From: a virus
IMG/VR virus record: IMGVR_UViG_3300009156_000463
Span: 1 to 20,476 of that record
Length of the DNA: 20,476 nt
Strand: one strand, 5' to 3'
The position numbers and the translations under genes are program-made. Numbering within the stretch: position 1 is the stretch's first letter; every line of letters starts with the position of its first letter. The notes below the pieces were generated by a model. It saw only the letters and a list, made by a program, of their open reading frames with translations. It had not been told where the DNA came from and searched no databases. Below are positions 1,548 through 19,518 of the stretch, piece by piece.

Positions 1548-1908
1548 ATCAGCGCCTCTTGTATTGGAATCGCACGGCGTTCGATTTCTGCGAACATGTC
1601 GGGCGCGCTGGCGGCAGCCTCTAGCCGGCGCTTGGCCGTCCCGGATTAACCTTGTCCCAGATAACCGAGTGAAAGAACCTGAGCCCTGAGTTGTCCATTC
1701 TATTCGCCACCCACGCGAAGGTCGGGCGCGGGCCGCCGCCGCCGCCGCAGCAGCAGCAGCAGCAGCAGCAGCAGTCCGGTTTCAGGATCCTGGCGGCCTC
1801 GGTTAGCATGGCATCCACGACGGTTCGCATAGTTGGAATGCCCGCGAGCACCTCTCGGCAGTCCCCGAGGTGGATTGTGGCCGAATTGCCTATAGTGTGA
1901 ACGGTCAT
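1544..1908 (-). pseudogene. remnant of a site-specific DNA methyltransferase with internal deletions and a frame change
   Basis: Reading from ATG 1908 (GGAG upstream), the protein begins with a methyltransferase-like start containing GDCREVLAGIP. It then jumps to AMLTEAARILKPD, a tract of 9 Cys and 5 Gly, PRPTFAWVANRM and FFHSVIWDKVNPG, and stops early at 1621. The expected D/N-PP-Y catalytic motif and its surroundings are absent. In the next frame, from about 1645 to the stop at 1546-1544, lies TAKRRLEAAASAPDMFAEI, which looks like the usual C-terminal end of such enzymes. One gene therefore seems to have lost two internal segments, the second with a frame change. The product should be inactive. 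It sits 5 nt after the 80-aa gene, and its old stop still overlaps the excisionase start. A short functional peptide cannot be excluded. Confidence 0.75.
1732..1773. repeat. triplet repeat (GCC)5(GCA)9
   Basis: On the plus strand five GCC units (1732-1746) are followed directly by nine GCA units (1747-1773). On the minus strand, in the frame of the methyltransferase remnant, they encode nine Cys and five Gly. Such tracts change length by slippage. I have an uncorroborated recollection of Cys/Gly runs at this place in intact relatives, so the tract may be ancestral rather than an expansion in the decayed gene. Confidence 0.9.
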
Positions 1909-13999: not shown

Positions 14000-14421
14000 T
14001 GCCCGGCAAGGTGTCTGACGACGTCAAGGCATTGCGCGGCACAAATAGGCTCAATCGCGAGCGCTCCGTTGTTGACCTATATCCCAACCACCTGAGCCGG
14101 CCCGATCCGGACGACCTGCCGCCGCCGGCCGACATGACCGACTCCGGCAAGCAGATTTGGGTGACTAAGGTTGAACGCTATCGGCAGCGCGGCCAGAAGG
14201 TCGACGGCTGCCAGGAGGCGCTGCGGCAGTACTGCGAGCTCGAGGCCAAAATGATCCGGCTTTGGAAGGAGGGGCCTCACCCGACTCCGTCCATGCTGAA
14301 CTGTTATCTGACTTACGCGAATAACTTCACAGACACGCCCGCCTCGCAGCGCATGATTGTTTCCGCCGGCGCAAAAGAAAACCCCTTCGTCCGAAATGGC
14401 AAGTTCAAAAAGCAAGGGTGA
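13999..14421 (+). CDS. terminase small subunit (P27-like)
   Basis: A 140-aa protein from ATG 13999. Visible features: an N-terminal basic stretch, SVVDLYPNHLSRPDPDDLPP, a helix rich in the pattern QIWVTKVERYRQRGQKVDGC, and a final YLTYANNFTDTPASQRM. This arrangement and its place immediately before the large subunit fit P27-type small terminases, which bind the packaging site and load the large subunit. The start overlaps the previous stop (TGATG), and the 3' end overlaps the large subunit by 26 nt. Confidence 0.8.
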   Translation: MPGKVSDDVKALRGTNRLNRERSVVDLYPNHLSRPDPDDLPPPADMTDSGKQIWVTKVERYRQRGQKVDGCQEALRQYCELEAKMIRLWKEGPHPTPSMLNCYLTYANNFTDTPASQRMIVSAGAKENPFVRNGKFKKQG

Positions 14422-16120
14422 TTATTCCTCGCAAGGCGCTTTGTATGCCCGTAGGGTGGCCGCTGGTGAGGTTTTAGCGGGTCGCCTATGCCGGCTAGCC
14501 TGTGAGAGGCATTTACGCGACCTACGGCGCTCTAATTGGGAATACGAGTACAACGCCGAACGCGCGAATGACGTTTGTGACTTCATTCAAAAGTTGCCCC
14601 ACGTTGAAGGCACGTGGGGTACGCCTACCATAAAGCTTGAGCCGGTCCAGATTTTCCTGCTCACGACTATCTTCGGATGGCGGCGGAAATCGGACGGCGG
14701 CCGGCGATTTAGTACGGTCTATATCGAGGCCGCTCGGAAGTTTGCAAAGAGCACCCTCTCAGCTGCGGTTTCCCTTTATTGCCTGACCTGCGAGCAGGAG
14801 GTCGGCCCGCAGATAGTTATCGGCGCCACGACGGCCGAGCAGGCTCAAAAGGTATTTGTACCGGCGAAGCGGATGGTCGAGCGCACTGGGGACTTGCGCG
14901 AGGCTTTCGAACTTGAGCCCTGGGCGCGGGCGGTGACGTGTCGCCAGAATGGCGGGACTATTCAAACGATTAACGCGAAAGGCAGAACGCAGGACGGGTG
15001 GAATCCCCACGTCGTCATGCTGGATGAGTTGCACGCCCACCCCGACCGCAGCTTGTTCGACGTGATGCGGTCGAGCTTTGGCGCCCGGAAAAATCCCCTG
15101 CTCTGGATAATCACCACGGCGGGCTATAATACCAACGGGGTTTGTTACGAGCAGCGGTCGGCCGCGGTCAAGGTCCTCGAGGGCGTGATCGAGCTAGACC
15201 ACCTCTTCGCCGTTATTTTCACGATTGACGAAAAGGACGACCCCTTCAATGAGCGGGTATGGGTGAAAGCCAACCCCATGCTCGGGATTACGCCCTCGCT
15301 GGAGTCTATGCGGGCCTATGCTGCAGATGCGAAGGTCTCGCCCGGCGACGAGGGGGAATTCAAGACTAAGCGGCTCAACGTCTGGATGTCCTCGGCGTCG
15401 GCCTGGCTCAACCAGCAGCAATGGATGGAATGCGCCGACCCGACGCTAGCGTGGTCAGACTTTGAGGGCCTCGACTGCTATGTCGGTGCCGACCTCGCTG
15501 ACAAAAACGATATCACGGCGATCGTGCTGGCCGCGATTGACACGAGCGGCCGGCTTCTTTGTAAGCCTGTGTTTTGGTTGCCCGATGAGGTCCTGGCCGA
15601 CCCGAAGCACGCCGAGGGGCGCGGCCCGGCGCCATACCGGACGTGGTCGACGCAGGGACACTTGCGGTTAACGCCCGGCGATTGGGTGGACCATAACGAG
15701 GTCGAGGAACAGATCGAGGAATGGCTGAAACGTTTCAGCGTCCGCGCGATAACGTTTGACCAGTTTGCCGCGGCGCAGGCGATGGCCTCGAGGCTGAACG
15801 AAAAGCACGCTACGCCTGACAAGCCCATCGCGACTGTCCTGCACAAGAAGGCGTCGGCGACGACCGACCCTTGCAAGGAGATCGAGGCGCGCGTGAAAGG
15901 CGGGCCGTTGCGGCTGCGGCACGACGGCAACCCGGTCATGAATTGGATGGCGTCAAACGTTGTCGTTGCCCGCCGCCGGGATGAGACGATTTTGCCGATC
16001 AAAGAAAGCGCGATGAGCCCGAATAAGATCGACGGCATCGACGCGCTGGTGAATGCCATATCGCCGCTTGTCCTGCACAAGCAGGAGCGGGAGCCCGAAT
16101 ATCGGATGCTGTTCGTATGA
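14396..16120 (+). CDS. terL: terminase large subunit
   Basis: This 574-aa motor-nuclease packages phage DNA. The ATPase has a Walker-A-like EAARKFAKST (111-120), lacking the usual GKS glycine as often seen in terminases, and Walker B VVMLDE (206-211) followed by LHAH. The coupling motif lies at LLWIITTAGYN. The nuclease third has Asp366/369 in YVGADLADKND, ITFDQFAAA, and the late Asp in NKIDGIDALVNAI. These fit the Terminase_1 family. ATG 14396 is preferred over ATG 14357, which would extend far into the small-subunit gene; no strong ribosome site, so coupling is likely. ATGA overlap with the next gene. Confidence 0.95.
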   Translation: MASSKSKGDYSSQGALYARRVAAGEVLAGRLCRLACERHLRDLRRSNWEYEYNAERANDVCDFIQKLPHVEGTWGTPTIKLEPVQIFLLTTIFGWRRKSDGGRRFSTVYIEAARKFAKSTLSAAVSLYCLTCEQEVGPQIVIGATTAEQAQKVFVPAKRMVERTGDLREAFELEPWARAVTCRQNGGTIQTINAKGRTQDGWNPHVVMLDELHAHPDRSLFDVMRSSFGARKNPLLWIITTAGYNTNGVCYEQRSAAVKVLEGVIELDHLFAVIFTIDEKDDPFNERVWVKANPMLGITPSLESMRAYAADAKVSPGDEGEFKTKRLNVWMSSASAWLNQQQWMECADPTLAWSDFEGLDCYVGADLADKNDITAIVLAAIDTSGRLLCKPVFWLPDEVLADPKHAEGRGPAPYRTWSTQGHLRLTPGDWVDHNEVEEQIEEWLKRFSVRAITFDQFAAAQAMASRLNEKHATPDKPIATVLHKKASATTDPCKEIEARVKGGPLRLRHDGNPVMNWMASNVVVARRRDETILPIKESAMSPNKIDGIDALVNAISPLVLHKQEREPEYRMLFV

Positions 16121-16874: not shown

Positions 16875-16982
16875 GTGATTCTCCTCGCCGCCATCCTCGG
16901 CATCATCCTCGCGCTGTTCGACCTCGCCGCGCAATGGGCGCGGCCAAACGTGGAGCCGTACCTATGTGCGATTATAGCCTGA
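16875..16982 (+). CDS. tiny membrane protein, 35 aa
   Basis: A frame from GTG 16875 gives 35 residues, mainly one hydrophobic helix (VILLAAILGIILALFDLAAQ) with a short polar end. It starts 2 nt after the previous stop and its 3' end overlaps the next gene by 19 nt in another phase. The ribosome site is poor. Plausible, but a chance hydrophobic frame is possible. Confidence 0.45.
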   Translation: MILLAAILGIILALFDLAAQWARPNVEPYLCAIIA

Positions 16983-17359
16983 TGCACTTGAAGTCGCGTC
17001 CCGCTGCAGTTGGCGACAAGCTGACGGTGAAAAACTTCGGTGTTGGCACTCGCGGTTTCTGCTCGCCGAGCGAGCCGGACACCGCCGTTTGCGTGCTGCC
17101 CGGCACCGAGTTGGCATTCGCCGAGAATGTGGAAATGTACGGCGAAAACAAAACTTTCTCGAAAACCGCCATCTTCCGGCAGATCAATCGCGACCTTTTG
17201 CACGCACACCACGATGCGCTCGAATTTCCTCCGGACGGGGAAACCAAACTGCTGACCTACGTTATCGAGGGTCAGGAGGCGACTGTTTTGCAGCTGCCGG
17301 CCGCGCCGCGAAATGAGGCCGAGGCGAAGGAGCAAACCCGCCTCGAGGTCGTCGGCTAA
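16964..17359 (+). CDS. MCDYS-type hypothetical protein, 131 aa
   Basis: ATG 16964 has GGAG 8 nt upstream. The protein begins MCDYSLMHLKSRPAAVGDKL, and has GTRGFCSPSEPDTAVCVLPG then TELAFAENVEMYG. I associate this family with chromosomes of Bradyrhizobium and related Rhizobiales, where its role is unknown; the body looks beta-rich. In a phage head module it is out of place and may be a captured host gene. The gene ends 7 nt before the tRNA-like element. Confidence 0.75.
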   Translation: MCDYSLMHLKSRPAAVGDKLTVKNFGVGTRGFCSPSEPDTAVCVLPGTELAFAENVEMYGENKTFSKTAIFRQINRDLLHAHHDALEFPPDGETKLLTYVIEGQEATVLQLPAAPRNEAEAKEQTRLEVVG

Positions 17360-17366
17360 TCCGCTA

Positions 17367-17430
17367 GGGGGAGGGCGCCGGTTCAAGTCCGGCCGGATTG
17401 ACTCCGTAGCTCAGAAGAAAGAGCGCCCCC
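17367..17430 (+). ncRNA. circularly permuted tRNA-like RNA element
   Basis: Read in order the segment contains: GGGGG (17367-17371, anticodon-stem 3' strand), AGGGC (variable loop), a T-arm GCCGG-TTCAAGT-CCGGC (17377-17393), a short hairpin CGGA-TTGAC-TCCG (17394-17406) where the acceptor stem would be, TA (17407-17408), a D-arm GCTC-AGAAGAAA-GAGC (17409-17424), G, and CCCCC (17426-17430) that pairs with the opening GGGGG. All canonical features (T8, A14, G15, A21, G26, C48, TTCAAGT) appear in permuted order, with the RNA ends in the anticodon loop. The D-loop lacks the usual GG. There is no CCA and only a 4-bp acceptor, so aminoacylation is unlikely. An alternative pairing TAATCCG/CGGATTG (17357-17363 with 17394-17400) would give a truncated-tRNA minihelix. 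Confidence 0.45.
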
Positions 17431-17449
17431 GCTTGTTCCTCCCGCGACT

Positions 17450-17484
17450 GGGGCCGACCCGGATGAACGGTCGGCCCCTCTTTT
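17450..17484 (+). terminator. intrinsic terminator before the capsid gene
   Basis: A perfect 10-bp stem GGGGCCGACC / GGTCGGCCCC (17450-17459 and 17469-17478) with a 9-nt loop is followed by TCTTTT (17479-17484). It lies between the tRNA-like element and the protease-capsid gene, so it would stop late transcription unless read through. Confidence 0.8.
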
Positions 17485-17499
17485 CATGGGCATATCACT

Positions 17500-19518
17500 A
17501 TGATGCATCGGGCATATAGCCTGCTTGATATCAAGCAGGTGAGCGATGAGCAGCGGGTAATTACCGGGATTGCTACCACTCCCGCGCCCGATCGCGTCGG
17601 CGACATCGTTGAGCCGCTCGGCGTCAAGTTCACCAACCCCATGCCGTTACTCTGGCATCACCGCAGCGATATGCCGGTTGGCACCGTCAAGTTTGATAAG
17701 CCGACAAAGGCCGGCATCGGCTTCACGGCCACTATGCCAAAGGTGGCCGAGCCTGGTCCGCTAAAGGACCGCATCGACACCGCATGGGGCGAGGTAAAGC
17801 TCGGGCTAGTGCGCGGCGTGTCGATTGGTTTCCGAGAACTCGAATTCTCGCGCATGGAAGACGGCGGGCTTCGCTTTATCGAAAGCGAGGTGCTGGAACT
17901 TTCGCTTGTTACCATTCCAGCCAATGCCGACGCGAGCATTCAAACCGTTAAGTCGCTCGACGAAAACCTTCGGACCCTGAGCGACAACGAAAGTGACCAC
18001 TCACCGGCAACGCTCCTGAAGGAGCAACGGCCGCCGCGTGTAGTGAAACTAAGCCATCCCGCCGCAGCGGGCTTTCCAAAATCGTGGAAACCCGGAGCGG
18101 TTAACATGAAAACCTATGCAGAGCAGATTACTGCTCTCGAGGCCAAGCGCGCAGCCAGCCAGGCGGCGCAGGAGGCTGTTGCACAGAAGTCGCTTGCCGA
18201 GGACCGCACTATGGATGCGGCCGAGGATGAGCAGTTCGACAACCTGCAATCCGAGCTTGAGGCGATTGACAAGCAGTTGGTCCGCCTGCGTCAACTCGAG
18301 GCCAACCTTGCCAAGACGGCGAAGCCGGTCATCAAGGCCGACGACGCGCAGTCCGCGAGCGAGGCCCGCGGCGGTCACATCGTCGTCAAGACTCCGCCGA
18401 AGCTCGAGCCCGGCATCGGTTATACGCGGCTCGTGAAGGTCAAGATGGCGGCCCGTTTGGCCGGCGAGGCGCCACTCGTCATGGCGCAGCGCATGTATGG
18501 CCCCGACAGCGAGGTCGTCGGGATCATCACCAAGGCCAACGAGGTGGTTGCCGGCACGACGTTGTCCGGTAACTGGGCCTACGACCTGGTCTCGCAGGAG
18601 GGCGCGGCGGTTGCGGCGTTCCTCGAGTATCTGCGCCCGGCCACCATTGTCGGCAAGTTCGGCACGGGTGGCATTCCCGGCCTGCGGCGGCTCGACTTCT
18701 ATACGCCGTATGTCACGCAGACCGGTGGTGGTGACGCCTACTGGGTCGGCGAGGGCAAGCCCAAGCCGCTGACCGCGTTCGACTTCGACCGGTCGACGCT
18801 GACTCCTCTCAAGATCGCAAATATCTGCGTTCTGACCGAGGAGAACATTCGCTACAGTTCGCCGAACAGCGATGCCATCGTTCGCGATGCATTGGTGCAG
18901 GCGATCGTGGCGGGTCTGGATGTCGCGTTCATCGATCCGTCGAACTCGGGCTCGGCGAATGTGAAGCCGGCCTCTATCACCAACGGTGCCGAGACGATCG
19001 TCTCGTCCGGTGACGATGCGGACGATGTCCGCCTCGACCTCCGCGCGCTGTTCGCCAAATTCCATGAGGCGGACAATCCTCCGAGCAATGGCGTGCTGAT
19101 TATGCCGACCAGTGCGGCAATGGCCATTGCGATGATGACGAACGCGTTGGGCCAAAGCGAATTCCCGTCGATGAATATCAATCGGAGTTCGGCGAGCGGG
19201 TCGCTGTTCGGCTTCCCGGTCATCGTCAGCGACCACCTCAGCGATGTCGTGGTTCTGGTCAATGCGTCGGACATCTTCCTCGGCGACGAGGGCGGGGTGT
19301 CCGTCGACATGAGCCGCGAGGCATCGATCGAGATGCGTTCCACCGGCCTCGGCATGGACGCGACGGCTGGCACCGCCACGGCGGCGTCGGTTTCGATGTT
19401 CCAGACCAACAGCGTTGCTCTTAGGGCGGAACGTACGATTTCGTGGAAGCGCGCTCGCGCTTCGGCTGTTGCGTATCTCACGTCGGTTGATTGGGGCGGC
19501 GACGTCCCGACTGCGTAA
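17500..19518 (+). CDS. prohead protease-major capsid protein fusion (HK97-type)
   Basis: A 672-aa fusion. Residues 1-~155 are a phage prohead protease (HK97 gp4/U35 type): His53/54 in LLWHHRSDMPVG, Ser108 in LVRGVSIGF and the VLELSLVTIPANADA strand. Residues ~203-300 form a helical scaffold-like segment (YAEQITALEAKRAASQAAQE, then LQSELEAIDKQLVRLRQLE). Residues ~310-670 are the HK97 capsid fold (FLEYLRPATIVGKFG, then GGDAYWVGEGKPKPLT, ICVLTEENIRYSSPNSD, and the final SVALRAERTISWKRA). The protease normally removes the scaffold segment. ATG 17500 has no good ribosome site. An internal ATG 18106 (residue 203) with GGAG could also give capsid alone. Confidence 0.9.
   Translation: MMHRAYSLLDIKQVSDEQRVITGIATTPAPDRVGDIVEPLGVKFTNPMPLLWHHRSDMPVGTVKFDKPTKAGIGFTATMPKVAEPGPLKDRIDTAWGEVKLGLVRGVSIGFRELEFSRMEDGGLRFIESEVLELSLVTIPANADASIQTVKSLDENLRTLSDNESDHSPATLLKEQRPPRVVKLSHPAAAGFPKSWKPGAVNMKTYAEQITALEAKRAASQAAQEAVAQKSLAEDRTMDAAEDEQFDNLQSELEAIDKQLVRLRQLEANLAKTAKPVIKADDAQSASEARGGHIVVKTPPKLEPGIGYTRLVKVKMAARLAGEAPLVMAQRMYGPDSEVVGIITKANEVVAGTTLSGNWAYDLVSQEGAAVAAFLEYLRPATIVGKFGTGGIPGLRRLDFYTPYVTQTGGGDAYWVGEGKPKPLTAFDFDRSTLTPLKIANICVLTEENIRYSSPNSDAIVRDALVQAIVAGLDVAFIDPSNSGSANVKPASITNGAETIVSSGDDADDVRLDLRALFAKFHEADNPPSNGVLIMPTSAAMAIAMMTNALGQSEFPSMNINRSSASGSLFGFPVIVSDHLSDVVVLVNASDIFLGDEGGVSVDMSREASIEMRSTGLGMDATAGTATAASVSMFQTNSVALRAERTISWKRARASAVAYLTSVDWGGDVPTA
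18094..18108 (+). promoter_or_regulatory. internal ribosome site and start within the capsid fusion
   Basis: GGAG at 18094-18097 sits 8 nt before the in-frame ATG 18106 (MKTYAEQ), exactly at the border between the protease and the scaffold-capsid part. It may allow separate, more abundant synthesis of the 470-aa scaffold-capsid protein alongside the fusion. Confidence 0.5.

Follow-up and report, generated by a model that had tools for sequence, protein, structure and literature searches.

An element at positions 17363 to 17439 (plus strand) of a viral DNA fragment is probably an orphan, reduced, and divergent YrlA-type RNA, as judged from its sequence and predicted fold: a bacterial Y RNA pared down to its tRNA-mimicking effector module, with no Ro60 gene found close to it. 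The fragment (referred to here as the window; 20,476 nt, approximately 20.5 kb) corresponds to positions 1 to 20,476 of IMG/VR record IMGVR_UViG_3300009156_000463, and the element lies between late genes, directly before the capsid gene. It is best explained by kinship with known Y RNAs, which accounts for it better than a new kind of permuted tRNA does. Given that neither a Ro60-binding stem in the element nor a nearby Ro60 gene was found, we term it a YrlA-derived tRNA mimic rather than classifying it as a Y RNA.

Structure and genomic setting of the element

The linear order of the element is variable region, T arm, closed acceptor-like hairpin, UA, and D arm, with outer strands able to pair. 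Its 5′ end, GCUAG (17363 to 17367), corresponds by sequence comparison to the conserved 5′ YGUAG (the internal loop of the Ro module) of Ro60-linked phage Y RNAs. There follow the 5′ strand of a closing helix at the anticodon-stem position (GGGG, 17368 to 17371, which folds with CCCC at 17426 to 17429, an alternative register existing), the variable-region equivalent (AGGGC, 17372 to 17376; RGGTC in the family), the T arm (GCCGG-UUCAAGU-CCGGC, 17377 to 17393; Rfam alignment, fold, and pair probabilities), and the closed acceptor-like hairpin (CGGA-UUGAC-UCCG, 17394 to 17406; fold and pair probabilities). UA (positions 8 and 9) and the D arm GCUC-AGAAGAAA-GAGC occupy 17407 to 17424, and the G26 equivalent with the 3′ strand of the closing helix (CCCC) occupies 17425 to 17429. 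The last segment, CGCUUGUUCC (17430 to 17439), is identical to the 3′ strand that Ro60-linked Y RNAs of phages and Hyphomicrobiales have in their Ro-binding module. All of these features are on the plus strand.

The preliminary description had placed a circularly permuted tRNA-like element at 17367 to 17430; its sequence and coordinates were correct, although the 3′ limit lies beyond 17430, at 17439 at least, once CGCUUGUUCC is included. Folding 17367 to 17430 alone (−26.9 kcal/mol) returned exactly the structure drawn there, namely, a GGGGG/CCCCC closing stem, a 5-bp T arm, a 4-bp hairpin, UA, and a 4-bp D arm. The permuted order and the equivalents of the conserved tRNA residues T8, A14, G15, A21, G26, and C48 were likewise confirmed. 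The GGGGG/CCCCC stem is that of the isolated fold; in a longer transcript, the register is ambiguous: the fold of 17345 to 17490 and the Rfam alignment preferred GGGC (17373 to 17376) with GCCC (17425 to 17428). The G18G19 of normal tRNA elbows was absent from the D loop of the element (AGAAGAAA). The permuted T-arm/D-arm pattern occurred once in the window and in none of 100 shuffles.

Archaea and algae have permuted tRNA genes, and alphaproteobacteria have a permuted tmRNA; in these, as in the window, the T half precedes the D half. Processing gives those RNAs mature ends, with CCA and an open acceptor stem, whereas the element in the window has no anticodon loop and its acceptor is closed into a hairpin. 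Neither the anticodon loop nor the open 7-bp acceptor stem of a translating permuted tRNA was found in the element, and ARAGORN detected no tRNA or tmRNA in the window. These results uphold the earlier view that a tRNA mimic or structured RNA is likelier than a translating tRNA.

The setting is a phage head region with a terminase (14357 to 16120), capsid, and portal. Upstream of the element is a 131-amino-acid (aa) open reading frame (ORF) on the plus strand with no assigned function (16964 to 17359; stop codon, 17357 to 17359), called from 16862 with its conserved part starting at 16964. Downstream, a hairpin search found a terminator-like structure on the plus strand (17450 to 17484), a perfect 10-bp hairpin (GGGGCCGACC/GGTCGGCCCC) with a 9-nt loop followed by TCTTTT; the consensus scan had missed it, its loops being limited to 3 to 8 nt. 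Next is an ORF of 672 aa (17500 to 19518, plus strand) with domain matches identifying a prohead protease-major capsid fusion (PF04586 and PF05065). The nearest capsid relatives in genomes (Microvirga, Methylobacterium, Devosia, and others; ≤52% identity) point to a likely alphaproteobacterial host. Elsewhere in the window (1691 to 1900), nine Q codons in a row (nine C codons on the opposite strand) form a low-complexity repeat within overlapping small ORFs.

The consensus scan found no sigma-70-like promoter belonging to the element itself. Together with the location of the element, which follows a stop codon and precedes a terminator-like hairpin, this result would suit a 3′-untranslated-region (3′-UTR) structure of the upstream late mRNA, in which the tRNA-like fold and the terminator hairpin protect the end or recruit tRNA-processing enzymes with no role for Ro60. 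We regard this explanation as unlikely: it does not predict the Y RNA-specific CGCUUGUUCC, and the scan was consensus based, with phage and other promoter types outside its scope.

Similarity to YrlA and to Ro60-linked phage RNAs

YrlA RNAs are 90 to 150 nt in length and join a large basal stem, which binds Rsr (a Ro60 protein), to a tRNA-like domain similar to the D, T, and acceptor arms of tRNA (PMC8394870); the structure of Salmonella YrlA (PDB 6CU1) is cited in the same source. The YrlA effector domain binds PNPase, and YrlA is a substrate of DusA and TruB (PMC8394870). Phages with Ro60 and a Y RNA are also on record (PMC7765460; PMC7824862). The lack of precedent supposed in the preliminary description thus does not hold, the class being already known as the YrlA-type Y RNAs of bacteria and phages (PMC8394870; PMC7765460).

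The best match of the window among 4,227 Rfam families was RF02553 (YrlA, Y RNA-like), which aligned end to end (model positions 1 to 114) with 17352 to 17460 at 31.4 bits (E value, 0.0023 over all families; 5.3e-7 when RF02553 was searched alone). The permuted tRNA-like effector module of YrlA-type Y RNAs (T, acceptor, and D arms) was found in the element. Like the window, YrlA has a T arm, a closed acceptor-like hairpin, UA, a D arm, and a closing helix replacing the anticodon stem, with conserved CUA before and UGUUCC after this helix. Unlike YrlA, the window has no Ro60 gene near the element, no demonstrable outer Ro-binding stem, a D loop without GG, and a score of 31.4 bits, below the RF02553 gathering score of 69; none of the Ro60-linked phage RNAs scored reached 69 either.

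To calibrate the RF02553 score, we scanned IMG/VR with a pattern describing the permuted order and then searched 50 matching records. The pattern occurred in more than 120 IMG/VR stretches, many of which were adjacent tRNA pairs. RF02553 matched all 50 of the pattern-bearing phage records, with best scores of 28 to 56 bits, none at 69. A Ro60 (TROVE) gene was present in 27 of these records (26 above the Pfam cutoff), mostly within approximately 1 kb of the RNA. The RNAs linked to Ro60 scored approximately 30 to 56 bits, several being as low as the window (30.8, 32.2, and 33.0). Among Hyphomicrobiales, six of eight pattern matches were in Ro60-bearing genomes, near the Ro60 gene.

Genuine adjacent tRNA pairs scored equally high (36.4 bits with RF02553 and 55.5 bits with model R1, described below), and score alone therefore cannot tell a Y RNA from a tRNA pair; the 36.4-bit match (L086) consists of three contiguous tRNAs according to ARAGORN. 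That such pairs match the same pattern and models is what would favor a remnant of a tRNA attachment site or of two adjacent tRNA genes, the first contributing its 3′ end and the second its 5′ end. This origin is very unlikely for the element. In an adjacent pair, each tRNA has its anticodon arm, and acceptor strands take up at least 14 nt between the T arm and U8; the element has 13 nt there, too few for two 7-nt acceptor strands and a discriminator, and this stretch folds on itself. There is an anticodon arm on neither side, and ARAGORN made no call.

We built a covariance model (R1) from 12 Ro60-linked Y RNAs (11 from phage records and 1 from a Hyphomicrobiales genome). Their common architecture runs from helix A, a bulged U, GG, YGUAG, helix B, UUACUUC, often an anticodon arm, RGGTC, and the T arm through a closed hairpin, UA, the D arm, helix B, CGYYUGUU, and CC back to helix A. 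The model includes 33 pairs, 21 of which changed on both sides, and helices A and B both covary; the covariation score was 0.567 versus 0.173 for shuffled versions (0 of 500) and at most 0.143 for slid versions. The covariation check proposed in the preliminary description is thus passed at the level of the family (the 12 Ro60-linked RNAs), while the sole close copy found of the window element is identical to it.

The R1 search of the window returned the element at 42.2 bits (E value, 2.6e-11), the next best match being 11.7 bits; the 5′ strand was aligned only across a long insertion, to a substitute. These scores, with the E value of 0.0023 over all of Rfam, make a chance resemblance in G+C-rich DNA extremely improbable, even though the folding energy of the element is itself unremarkable (z, −1.2 to −1.4), as such a resemblance would have it.

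A complete anticodon arm before the variable region was present in 16 of the 27 Ro60-linked phage Y RNAs versus 9 of 513 shifted positions. These 16 RNAs (IMG/VR; L092, L097, L104, L112, L118, L126, L134, L142, L149, L159, L163, L168, L187, L194, L196, and L200) have U33, purine 37, and, in all but one (15/16), a 5-nt variable region. With the help of re-ordering and an added GCCA end, ARAGORN called every one of them (16/16) as a tRNA once it was put back in tRNA order, with eleven different anticodons (CUU, UGU, GAU, GUG, GUC, GCC, GUU, and others). By sequence, they appear to be nearly whole permuted tRNAs. The window element has no such anticodon arm. We also observed permuted tRNA-like modules arrayed head to tail, none with a full anticodon arm, in L160 (6633 to 6745), L170, L192 (7316 to 7424), L189, and L178; Ro60 was not found in the array records L160, L170, L192, and L189.

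The Ro-binding module and the search for Ro60

The motif CGCUUGUUCC lies directly 3′ of the closing helix, and CTTGTTCC was found once in the window with both strands counted. CGCUUGUUCC is also exact in L168, L194, and L264, and 8 to 10 of its 10 positions were matched in 9 of the 27 Ro60-linked phage RNAs. Short stand-alone RNAs of approximately 60 to 90 nt, YrlB-like in having the Ro-binding module without the tRNA-like module, adjoin long phage Y RNAs (L168, 650 to 710 and 721 to 809; L187, 4187 to 4249; L159, 1400 to 1536; L194, 403 to 466; and L112, 10794 to 10855). The phage module formed by helices A and B thus occurs as a short RNA alone, as does Salmonella YrlB, which belongs to the operon rsr-yrlBA-rtcBA. 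Because this module stands alone, we infer that the motif CGYUUGUUCC is part of the Ro-binding module and not of the tRNA mimic. In a Hyphomicrobiales genome (G094; L257/L264), three Y RNA model matches occur in succession beside the Ro60 gene, and the successive Y RNAs adjoining Ro60 in L264 end in CGCCTGTTCC and CGCTTGTTCC.

Like the window, the Ro60-linked phage Y RNAs (e.g., L168, L187, L194, and L159) carry CGCUUGUUCC beside the helix that bears the tRNA-like module, with UAG on the 5′ side. They differ in having GG-YGUAG opposite the motif, where the window has CC-GCUAG, as well as a covarying helix of approximately 7 bp, a Ro60 gene in the vicinity, and, in many cases, an anticodon arm. 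The fold of a long transcript and its pair probabilities offered a possible 5′ strand of an outer stem at 17347 to 17355 (plus strand; GGUCG, bulged U17352, CGG), pairing with 17442 to 17449. This strand is the end of the coding sequence, overlapped by the last codons of the 131-aa ORF (GAG GTC GTC GGC TAA), and the stem GGUCG-U-CGG/CCG-CGACU is not significant, as 12.6 to 20.5% of window 27-mers pair as well. No large Ro60/Rsr-binding stem joining the 5′ and 3′ ends was found in the window element.

No Ro60 gene (TROVE; PF05731) was detected in the 20.5-kb window or in an overlapping 14.2-kb contig, both of which are fragments of a genome. The second contig is identical over the shared part and reaches approximately 4 kb further; its identical copy of the element argues against an assembly error. 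None of nine genomes holding capsid relatives contained Ro60. Over the order that includes Microvirga (Hyphomicrobiales), Ro60 was above the cutoff in 16 of 397 genomes, and host Ro60 is therefore possible but not the default.

No divergent homolog of the window element was found, and among the inspected loci of relatives of the capsid (in viral contigs and genomes) and of the upstream ORF, none had a comparable element at the corresponding site. Low R1 matches at relatives of the neighboring genes were ordinary tRNAs (L054, L067, and L045) or weak (L218). A DNA search of phage records for close homologs gave short matches, mostly tRNA T arms, and one weak unannotated match (H1). Three others, among them the longer Y RNAs L207 and L208, matched a pattern designed for short elements that carry the 3′ motif, and a relaxed version of this pattern added 18 matches, none with model support.

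The isolated occurrence, the failure to find Ro60, the broken 5′ Ro strand, and the degenerate D loop would all be expected of a decayed Y RNA, i.e., a nonfunctional relic drifting between two late genes after the loss of Ro60. This is the strongest rival, and we consider it possible though not favored. Arguing against a relic, pairing is complete in every stem (those of the T arm, the acceptor hairpin, and the D arm, and the closing helix), although decay would be expected to reach the stems too, and the 10-nt motif matches exactly.

Possible function and implications

As a YrlA-derived mimic, the putative RNA would most likely arise from late transcription of the upstream gene, forming the 3′ part of that transcript and ending at the 17450-to-17484 hairpin. 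In the predicted tertiary fold, the T arm would stack on the closed acceptor-like hairpin and the D arm would lie alongside, the short closing helix replacing the anticodon stem. The resulting tRNA-like face may be recognized by host factors (in studied species, PNPase and the tRNA-modifying enzymes TruB and DusA). The Ro60-binding stem appears to be partly worn, with its 3′ motif CGCUUGUUCC intact and its 5′ strand not; any tethering to Ro60, itself doubtful, would depend on a Ro60 supplied by the host. A tentative and rather improbable proposal is that the effector module works alone, independently of Ro60, as a late RNA or 3′-UTR element engaging PNPase or tRNA-handling host enzymes during head production.

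A "permuted tRNA" between phage head genes accordingly has a precedent and belongs with the Y RNAs. In the Ro60-linked Y RNAs of phages, tRNA mimicry may exceed the D, T, and acceptor arms described previously (PMC8394870). A Y RNA tRNA mimic can occupy a phage late region with no Ro60 nearby, which makes the module's own role testable.
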